A stretch of 64,000 nucleotides of DNA from positions 984,142-1,048,141 of the forward strand of contig CP058998.1 of the NCBI GenBank assembly GCA_013426015.1, written 5' to 3'. Origin of the DNA: Candidatus Fermentimicrarchaeum limneticum (GTDB lineage: Archaea > Micrarchaeota > Micrarchaeia > Burarchaeales > Fermentimicrarchaeaceae). The position numbers and the translations under genes are program-made. Below the pieces are notes generated by a model. It ran no database searches. It had not been told where the DNA came from and saw nothing but the letters and a program-made list of their open reading frames with translations. Below, piece by piece: positions 61,239 through 63,632 of this stretch (within the stretch, counting starts at the first letter, position 1; every line of letters starts with the position of its first letter).

Positions 61239-61541
61239 CTACTTCTTCACAGGGAGCGGCTTTGCGTGCGAAGCCAGCAGCTTTATTGCCTGCTCTATCG
61301 CAATCTTCACCTCCCCCTCGCTCTTGGAGCCTGTGCAGATTATCTTGCCGTTCTTGAAGAGCAAAAGAGAAGCACGGGGCTCCTTCAGCTTCAGTATGGC
61401 TCCCGGGAACTGCTCCGGCTCATATTCGACATTCCTCACTTTCTGAGCAATAGTGTACAGGTCAAGCTCCACTCCCAGATTCGCGGAGGCGACAATGTTC
61501 TCTATCTTAAATTTAGGATCAAGTTTGAGTTTTTTAGCCAT
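61239..61541 (-). CDS. tbp: Single-repeat (half-size) TATA-box-binding protein
   Basis: 100 residues, versus about 180-190 with two direct repeats in known archaeal TBPs. One complete repeat is seen: IENIVASANLGVELDL, NVEYEPEQFPGAILKLKEPR, ASLLLFKNGKIICTGSKSE, then a helix. The opening resembles repeat 1 and the middle repeat 2 of normal TBPs. DNA-wedging Phe residues (QFPG, LLLF) are kept. The frame ends cleanly at PVKK and stop; no second repeat follows. A homodimer could rebuild the saddle. GGTGGTCACCG precedes the ATG. It is divergent from rpl21e. Confidence 0.85.
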   Translation of the reverse strand: MAKKLKLDPKFKIENIVASANLGVELDLYTIAQKVRNVEYEPEQFPGAILKLKEPRASLLLFKNGKIICTGSKSEGEVKIAIEQAIKLLASHAKPLPVKK

Positions 61542-61619
61542 CGGTGACCACCAATTTATTTATAAACGTAAGTCTTTAAAATACTTAAGAAGGTTCAGAA
61601 GTGGCTTGGAGGTAAGCCC

Positions 61620-61898
61620 ATGAGAAGGTCAAAGGGAAAGTTCTCGAAAAGGACTAAATGCCTCAGGAAAAGGGCAAGGAAGAGAAGCCTCACAATGCAG
61701 AGAGTTCTGAGCAGCTTCAAGACTGGGGATAAAGTGTGCATAGACCCAGCTCCGTCGCAGGAGGGATTGCCCCACCCGAGATACAGGGGAAGGCACGCAG
61801 TTGTCTTGGGAACGAGAGGAAAATATTATGTTATCGAGGTAAGAACCGGAAAGGCAAGGAAGAAGCTGATAATACACGGCATGCATTTGAGGAGATGA
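61620..61898 (+). CDS. rpl21e: Ribosomal protein L21e
   Basis: 92 residues: MRRSKGKFSKRTKCLRKR basic N-terminus, VLSSFKTGDKVCIDPAPSQ, and HPRYRGRHAVVLGTRGKYYVIEV are the family core. GGAGGTAAGCCC before the ATG is a good ribosome site, and TTTAAAATAC lies upstream. It overlaps the rpoF start region, in the conserved archaeal order rpl21e-rpoF-DUF655-ksgA. Confidence 0.96.
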   Translation: MRRSKGKFSKRTKCLRKRARKRSLTMQRVLSSFKTGDKVCIDPAPSQEGLPHPRYRGRHAVVLGTRGKYYVIEVRTGKARKKLIIHGMHLRR

Positions 61899-62239
61899 TT
61901 ATGATAGACAAGGCAGTTCGGTCAAACAGGCCGGCAACGCTGGCAGAGGTTGCAGAGATATTGGAGAAGAGGAAAGAGGAGGGAGAATTGGGTTTCGAGC
62001 AGCAGACCACGCTTGCTTATGCGACTAAATACGCAAAATTGAGCAAGAAGAAGGCAGCAGAACTGATGGAGGAGCTGCAGAAGAAGGACAAAATCAAGCC
62101 GGCGGTTGCGGCAAAGATAGCGGACATCCTCCCGAAGAACTCTGACCAGATAAGGCTTATATTCGCAAACGAAAGGTATTCGCTGAGTTCAGCAGAGATT
62201 GAGGAAGTGCTTAAAATTGTCGAAAAATACAGGAAATAG
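61895..62239 (+). CDS. rpoF: RNA polymerase subunit F (Rpb4)
   Basis: About 112-114 residues. RPATLAEVAEILEKR near the start, QQTTLAYATKYAKLSKKKAAELMEEL, and DQIRLIFANERYSLSSAEIEEVLKIV are typical of RpoF, which with RpoE forms the polymerase stalk. The start may be ATG 61895, overlapping the L21e stop (ATGA), or ATG 61901, which is better spaced from TGAGGAG. Confidence 0.95.
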   Translation: MIMIDKAVRSNRPATLAEVAEILEKRKEEGELGFEQQTTLAYATKYAKLSKKKAAELMEELQKKDKIKPAVAAKIADILPKNSDQIRLIFANERYSLSSAEIEEVLKIVEKYRK

Positions 62240-62256: not shown

Positions 62257-62829
62257 ATGAGAATAGGAATGGAAGAGTATGCAGTAGTAGTAGATTCGCT
62301 CCCTTACGGGAAATCGACAGATGCGAGAAGGGAGCCAGTTGCGCAGGTTATAGGAGAGGACTATTTTACGTTATTGGAAGTGACGCCTAAACCCGATACG
62401 ACTATTTCTGTCGGAGAGAGGATATACATTGGCAAGGGTCCTAGGGACAAGGTAGACCACATCAAGAGCAGGATAACCTACTTTGACCTGACTTCTTCTT
62501 CAAGGGCAGAACTGGAAAGGGCGATAAAGAGGATAATAACAGAGAAGGAGCCCTATTTTGTGAGCTTCTTCAACAAATGCGGGCCGATAAACATAAGGAT
62601 GCACCAGCTTGAAATTCTCCCAGGAGTCGGGAAGAAGCACATGAGGGACATTCTGGATGAAAGGGAGAGGAAGCCTTTCGAGAGCATTGCCGACATAAAC
62701 AAGAGGGTTGCGCTCCTGCCGGATGCCTCCAAGATAATCACAGATAGGGTGCTGGAGGAGCTGATGGGAAAGTCCAAGTACTACCTCCTCACGAGGCCGC
62801 CCTTCCAGAAAGAAGAGGGTCAGTTCTGA
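62257..62829 (+). CDS. DUF655 RNA-binding protein
   Basis: 190 residues of the archaeal DUF655/COG1491 family: N-terminal beta-rich domain (YAVVVDSLPYGKS, VGERIYIGKGPRDKVDHI) and a C-terminal helix-hairpin-helix (LEILPGVGKKHMRDILDERERKPFES). It probably binds RNA and, by conserved position between rpoF and ksgA, is linked to rRNA maturation. The last base overlaps the ksgA ATG (TGATG). Confidence 0.92.
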   Translation: MRIGMEEYAVVVDSLPYGKSTDARREPVAQVIGEDYFTLLEVTPKPDTTISVGERIYIGKGPRDKVDHIKSRITYFDLTSSSRAELERAIKRIITEKEPYFVSFFNKCGPINIRMHQLEILPGVGKKHMRDILDERERKPFESIADINKRVALLPDASKIITDRVLEELMGKSKYYLLTRPPFQKEEGQF

Positions 62830-63632
62830 TGCTCAGGGATGAGCTGCTGGCAATTTTTGAGAGGTACGACATACACCCAAGGAAGAGAATGAGCCAGAGC
62901 TTTCTTGTTGATGAAAGAGTAATAGAGAAGGAAGTAGATTACGCGGAAGTTGATGGCAAGGAGGTTCTTGAGATAGGTCCGGGAGTAGGCTTTTTGACAA
63001 GAGCACTTGCAGAAAGGGCAGGGAAGGTTGTTGCAGTTGAGAAGGATGGGCGGCTTGCCAGGCTGCTTCAGGATTCAATGCCCGAATCAGTTGAAGTTAT
63101 CGAAGCAGACTTCCTCAAATACAATGTGAAGAAAGCGGAGGTTATTGTTTCAAACGTACCCTACTCCATTTCGTCGCCTTTGCTGTTCAAAATTGCCGAG
63201 ATGGATTTTGAGAGGGCTGTTCTGTGCTTCCAGGAGGAGTTCGCAAGAAGGATGGTTGCCAAGTCAGGAAGCAGCGAATACTCCCGCCTTTCTGTCATGA
63301 GCCAGCTCAGCTTTGAACCGAGAATTCTGCAGAAAGTCTCAAGGGGCTGCTTCTTCCCGGTACCGAGGGTGGATTCCGCGCTTGTTCTGCTGAAACCTAA
63401 AGGAAAGAAGGTTGACGAGCTCTCAGGCAGGCTCATAAACTTCATCTTCCAGCACAGGAACAGGACGGTAAGAAGCGCGCTTGTGAGCTCTTCCAGAAAT
63501 CTCGGGATTGAAAAAAGGGAGCTGATGCAGCTGGCTGAACAACTGCCTTTCAGGGAAAGAAGGGTGATTTCGCTGACCTTGGAAGAGATCATGGAGCTTG
63601 TTGGAAAAAAGGAGCTCAGGGGAAAACTCTGA
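62829..63632 (+). CDS. ksgA: 16S rRNA (adenine-N6,N6)-dimethyltransferase
   Basis: Dimethylates the two adenines of helix 45 in 16S rRNA. SAM motif I EIGPGVGFLTRAL near residue 48, VVAVEKDGRL, EADFLKY and catalytic NVPYSISSPL are present; the C-terminal helical domain has FFPVPRVDSALV. 267 residues is normal. It converges on the histone-fold-like gene with no spacer. Confidence 0.96.
   Translation: MLRDELLAIFERYDIHPRKRMSQSFLVDERVIEKEVDYAEVDGKEVLEIGPGVGFLTRALAERAGKVVAVEKDGRLARLLQDSMPESVEVIEADFLKYNVKKAEVIVSNVPYSISSPLLFKIAEMDFERAVLCFQEEFARRMVAKSGSSEYSRLSVMSQLSFEPRILQKVSRGCFFPVPRVDSALVLLKPKGKKVDELSGRLINFIFQHRNRTVRSALVSSSRNLGIEKRELMQLAEQLPFRERRVISLTLEEIMELVGKKELRGKL

Follow-up and report, generated by a model that had tools for sequence, protein, structure and literature searches.

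A one-lobe TATA-binding protein that is probably the general TBP of a micrarchaeal cell

The internal repeat of the TATA-binding protein (TBP) has been taken as a relic of an ancestor with one repeat, and that stage is usually regarded as lost. In the 64-kb stretch of micrarchaeal DNA analysed here (the window), one gene encodes a protein with a single TBP repeat, and the question is what such a protein does in its cell: the original prediction saw in it either a reversion to an ancestral-like symmetrical TBP or a second TBP-like factor. We consider it probable that the gene encodes the general TBP of the cell in a one-lobe form, which would pair with itself into the saddle. The gene and the site in front of it are:

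61239 to 61541, minus strand (read from 61541 to 61239): single-lobe TBP gene, ATG to TAG, 100 codons, 100 amino acids, PF00352
61542 to 61552, minus strand: GGTGGTCACCG, putative ribosome-binding site on its sequence, directly before the ATG

The coordinates first proposed for the gene were exact, and its 100 codons, start and stop were all confirmed, with a putative ribosome-binding site in front, on the minus strand, which had gone unstated. The protein matches PF00352 from residue 10 to residue 91 over profile positions 1–84 of 85 (E 2.9e-30), and its 104.4 bits against a cut-off of 22.9 place it within the TBP domain family. With the profile covered nearly in full and no second TBP lobe found in any reading frame across the window, the gene encodes exactly one repeat, as had been proposed. 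The protein falls far below every cut-off of the NCBIfam TBP models (98.6 vs 270 for the best model); automatic naming cut-offs would miss single-lobe TBP genes. Across an alignment of 30 single-lobe relatives 28 columns are invariant, which argues that the window gene is neither a chance open reading frame nor a pseudogene.

The residues by which a TBP makes its contacts are retained. The Phe of the FKNGK loop is a DNA contact and the Glu pair C.L3.2 and C.L3.4 a TFB contact (PMC7221094); in the window protein and its relatives (31 sequences), the DNA-wedging F45 and F62, which the original prediction had held to be kept, are invariant, as are E41 and E43 of YEPE (the TFB-contacting pair), N15, the ASA segment, and the motifs YEPEQFPG and FKNGK. 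YEPEQFPG is found in both lobes of the two-lobe relatives, where all contacts stay, whereas canonical N lobes can vary at this point (YNPE in Pyrococcus, YDPD in Sulfolobus). The claim that features of the two normal halves are mixed in the repeat is true only loosely: YEPEQFPG is of C-lobe type and IENIVAS is N-lobe-like, and when the protein was compared with both halves of known structures the best match was the N lobe for M. jannaschii and S. acidocaldarius and the C lobe for Pyrococcus. Compared with the canonical archaeal TBPs (1mp9; 2z8u from M. jannaschii; 1ais from P. woesei), it shares the lobe fold, the wedging Phe residues and the E-P-E contacts to TFB, is 43–46% identical to a lobe in structure matches, and belongs to a genome with TATA and BRE promoters and with the partner factors, namely a single ordinary, full TFB (Zn ribbon, two cyclin repeats) together with a single TFE-alpha. 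It differs in having one lobe per chain, where canonical TBPs have two direct repeats, which would dimerise in trans, and in that both stirrups of the single-lobe form would be of C-lobe (TFB-binding) type.

The genome that holds the window (Micrarchaeota, 1.2 Mb, 2 contigs, 96.9% complete) was searched by profile for a two-repeat TBP. None was found in this 96.9% complete assembly, and the search returned instead three single-lobe matches, in open frames of 106, 114 and 118 amino acids without internal stops. The other two copies are 75–77% identical to the window gene; with one another, these two (L002 at C1:448260 and L003 at C1:893905) share 92% nucleotide identity and 45 of 47 fourfold sites, and are recently duplicated. 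HEAT-like proteins that are 29% identical to each other adjoin two of the three paralogs (61167 to 60583 on the minus strand of the window, and L003:212-1246), and an open reading frame near L002 has what may be an HNH-like appearance. The closest public relatives of the window protein come from Ca. Micrarchaeota MAGs; among plasmids, phages and IMG/VR, the matches listed were haloarchaeal and haloviral TBPs of low identity and 11 distant viral contigs.

A survey of 60 genomes of the class, 54 of which have a TBP, revealed that one lobe is the rule in much of Micrarchaeota rather than the oddity of a single genome. Single-lobe TBPs alone occur in 41 of the 54 genomes and two-lobe TBPs in the other 13, with both forms together in none. 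Among the 41, a single copy of the window type is present in 26, two or three copies in four of the same genus as the window, and two copies in 11 of the family f9. One member of f9, Ca. Mancarchaeum acidiphilum Mia14, has a complete circular genome (a chromosome of 952,257 bp; PMC5498576) with two single-lobe TBPs and no two-lobe TBP, so that loss through assembly is excluded there. The copies within the genome, the relatives, the Mia14 genome and the invariant columns together rule out an assembly error or a pseudogene, and neither such an error nor a full-length TBP accompanied by loss of contact residues in the window gene, the two outcomes that would have spoken against the original prediction, was found. 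In many members of a large living clade, all TBPs are of the one-repeat kind, and they resemble the long-proposed single-repeat ancestor.

The position of the gene relates the two forms to each other. In the window, its divergent neighbours on the opposite strand are:

61620 to 61898, plus strand: ribosomal protein L21e, the divergent neighbour of TBP (PF01157, E 4.5e-16)
61901 to 62239, plus strand: RNA polymerase subunit F (RpoF, Rpb4 family; PF03874, E 1.5e-13; NCBIfam RpoF matches)
62257 to 62829, plus strand: DUF655 protein of the conserved cluster (PF04919, E 3.5e-64)
62829 to 63632, plus strand: KsgA/Dim1-type rRNA adenine dimethylase of the conserved cluster (PF00398, E 1.8e-50)

The same arrangement, with TBP divergent from L21e and then RpoF, DUF655 and often KsgA, recurs in single-lobe and two-lobe lineages alike; of 96 single-lobe loci, 54 have L21e at most 1 kb from TBP, as do 35 of the 51 two-lobe ones, many loci being truncated. 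This common slot makes the single-lobe and two-lobe forms positional orthologs, and because the slot is the same and the number of lobes is not, the gene has changed lobe number in place. In the ten f9 genomes read in detail, one of the two genes (type A) occupies the L21e slot, and the other (type B), which is divergent, lies elsewhere; since only type A holds the slot, type B is a later paralog.

How the lobe number changed was approached through the lobes themselves. The two-lobe TBPs of Micrarchaeota and Iainarchaeota (such as L040, L060, L091 and L133, and L112 of GW2011_AR10) share with the single-lobe proteins the YEPEQFPGAI/FKNGK core and, for most Micrarchaeota forms, the gene slot, and their lobes group with the single-lobe proteins; they differ in being two fused lobes, which are in many cases unusually alike. 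Identity between N and C lobes is 42–56% in three canonical archaeal TBPs vs 68–82% in many Micrarchaeota two-lobe TBPs. In lobe trees, which were unrooted and built from 85 columns and reduced sequence sets, a split (100/96) separates every canonical N and C lobe from all 60 Micrarchaeota and Iainarchaeota lobes, with N and C lobes of the latter pairing within Iainarchaeota (91/92) and within families f12/f15 (98/94). The AU test rejected a tree uniting the N lobes of all rows in one clade (p 0.003), and likewise the joining of canonical N lobes with those of Iainarchaeota (0.015), f15 (0.003) or f7 (0.028). These rejections argue against simple descent of the clade's two-lobe TBPs from the canonical duplication, each lobe retaining its identity; they would have been either re-duplicated from single lobes or homogenised. 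In an RpoB tree with a weak backbone, from which G037 was left out because of a wrong open reading frame, the single- or two-lobe state changes three to five times, and we propose that within Micrarchaeota and Iainarchaeota the lobe number of the TBP gene has changed in place several times. Sister lineages would offer freshly duplicated, nearly symmetric two-lobe TBPs, and one family has two separate half-TBP genes.

It is quite possible, although we lean against it, that no re-duplication took place, the lobes of the clade being alike by gene conversion or convergence and the single lobe being a repeat contraction of an ordinary two-lobe TBP. Tandem near-identical repeats contract and convert easily, and although the tree suggests separate duplications within the clade, the AU tests do not require them (p 0.14–0.49), so we did not retain them as a necessary event. 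However, the N and C lobes of L091 group together (97/84) nested inside single-lobe sequences and share 84% nucleotide identity and 25 of 29 fourfold sites, and by inspection of the RpoB tree losses alone need more events than gains. It seems distinctly unlikely that the one-lobe homodimeric TBP of Micrarchaeota is primitive and predates the duplication behind the two-lobe TBP of other archaea and eukaryotes, in which case two-lobe TBPs would have arisen at least twice, in the canonical line and then, perhaps more than once, within Micrarchaeota/Iainarchaeota. Being unrooted, the lobe tree does not distinguish reduction from retention. The predicted reversion to an ancestral-like symmetrical TBP stands as one possibility, and the two-lobe forms of the clade look re-duplicated or homogenised.

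We further considered how a single lobe could act as a TBP. The AlphaFold2 monomer (mean pLDDT 87.9) fits a single lobe of 1mp9, the TBP of S. acidocaldarius (TMq 0.82, rmsd 1.1 Å). For the natural two-lobe relative L060, with 80% identity between its lobes, a full saddle is predicted (TMt 0.85–0.92 against archaeal TBPs); in the light of this near-symmetric fused form, it is plausible that the single lobe could form a symmetric dimer. In the mechanism we propose, two copies would pair through the strand at the pseudo-dyad of an ordinary TBP, giving the saddle as a true two-fold dimer, in which each lobe would contribute two of the four Phe wedges that bend the TATA box. Both stirrups would be of the C-lobe type YEPEQFPG, and TFB could dock on either, its one-sided contacts to the BRE then fixing the direction of transcription. 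The three paralogs of the window's genome may exchange freely, with heterodimers possible among them. Intact contacts and the predicted folds are consistent with the original proposal that a homodimer could be functional.

That single-lobe proteins work chiefly by pairing with a different paralog, two genes restoring the asymmetry of TBP, is a reading we judge unlikely for the group as a whole. Two single-lobe genes are present in 11 of 11 sampled f9 genomes, and in the ten read in detail (L113–L132, of which L123 and L124 belong to Mia14) they are the types A and B described above; this A/B pair is predicted to be a split, heterodimeric TBP in which A and B together would form the saddle. The genus of the window also keeps two or three paralogs, those of the window's genome at the identity given above. 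However, L002 and L003 were copied recently, judging by their fourfold sites, and in the 26 genomes with one single-lobe gene of the window type, one of which (G009) also has a divergent TBP-domain protein, homodimers must suffice. The protein in G009 (L147, C12:19300) is a very divergent single-lobe paralog without YEPEQFPG, beside a normal single-lobe TBP.

Self-pairing, the reading we prefer for the window protein, would give a symmetrical TBP, for which a palindromic TATA core is expected. Upstream of the window gene lie two candidate elements:

61559 to 61566, minus strand: candidate TATA box TTTATAAA, palindromic, which fits the genome-wide motif
61574 to 61581, minus strand: second AT-rich candidate, TTTTAAAG, putatively assigned on sequence

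Motif discovery upstream of 158 genes returned aAnnTTTwwAtA, an ordinary BRE plus TATA (log-likelihood 123 vs 39–57 in shuffles), in which the TATA part, TTTwwAtA, is 8 bp long and centred most often 25–30 bases before the start codon. The A-rich BRE is one-sided, with 0.58 A vs 0.30 T at the mirror position, and TFB can therefore provide the polarity. The expectation that a symmetrical TBP loses one source of promoter polarity is plausible in itself, but the motif still carries a one-sided BRE through which TFB can supply direction. Asymmetry of the TATA core was 0.28 (0.17–0.49) vs 0.44 (0.27–0.60) in a two-lobe relative, with overlapping intervals. This is a weak trend, and the TATA box of a canonical archaeon can likewise be palindromic, as in TTTTAAAA (PMC8131849); we therefore rejected palindromic boxes as proof of a symmetric TBP. 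A symmetric TBP driving oriented transcription, polarity set by TFB and BRE alone, and the origin of the fused asymmetric TBP now become testable.

Action as a monomer, bound to half a TATA box or held by TFB without dimerisation, would be in keeping with the need for TFB in stable canonical TBP-DNA complexes of some archaea (review PMC7289017) and with the single TBP domain that RNase HIII and other proteins use on nucleic acid (PMC7221094), but it is very improbable given a TATA motif of full length, a gene slot filled elsewhere by two-lobe orthologs, and two-lobe TBPs of the clade that keep all contacts in both lobes. A secondary TBP-like factor, with the real two-lobe TBP missed by assembly or search, can hardly be what the window encodes: MAGs can miss genes and a separate divergent single-TBP-domain family coexists with a two-lobe TBP in Iainarchaeota, but that family reaches ~20–30 bits in the profile search vs 104 for the window gene, the complete Mia14 genome and the mutual exclusion of the two forms in 54 genomes speak against it, and the gene, in a genome where no two-lobe TBP was found, occupies the conserved slot in which other families have their two-lobe TBP.

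Proteins consisting of one TBP domain, as the window protein does, have been noticed before: Brindefalk et al. 2013 reportedly described single (‘monopartite’) TBP-domain proteins in some Archaea, ARMAN-type genes possibly among them. The divergent type found in Iainarchaeota has lost the core motifs and coexists with a two-lobe TBP, whereas the window type replaces TBP, its own genome and all 41 single-lobe genomes being without a two-lobe form. The N-terminal TBP domain of RNase HIII is likewise a single domain contacting duplex nucleic acid (PMC7221094), but is fused to an RNase and is not a transcription factor. DPANN surveys score TBP simply as conserved (PMC8407392, PMC8204110), and our literature search found no description of single-lobe-only archaea, heterodimeric half-TBP pairs or in-place changes of lobe number. 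Single-TBP-domain archaeal proteins are thus already known; one serving as the sole TBP of a clade appears to be new.

Further divergent TBP folds were encountered in the surveyed genomes. The Iainarchaeota type is a protein of ~95 amino acids (L269 in GW2011_AR10, C1:420110), with similar proteins in ~20 Iainarchaeota genomes. A 726-aa frame (L268, G070:C8) holds four divergent TBP lobes followed by a hydrophobic, probably membrane-spanning stretch, in a genome that also has a normal two-lobe TBP elsewhere. In a 218-aa frame (L271, G063:C1:23000-25500), a lipoprotein-like signal (AILLAGCTS) precedes two divergent TBP-like lobes; its product is apparently an extracytoplasmic TBP-fold protein.
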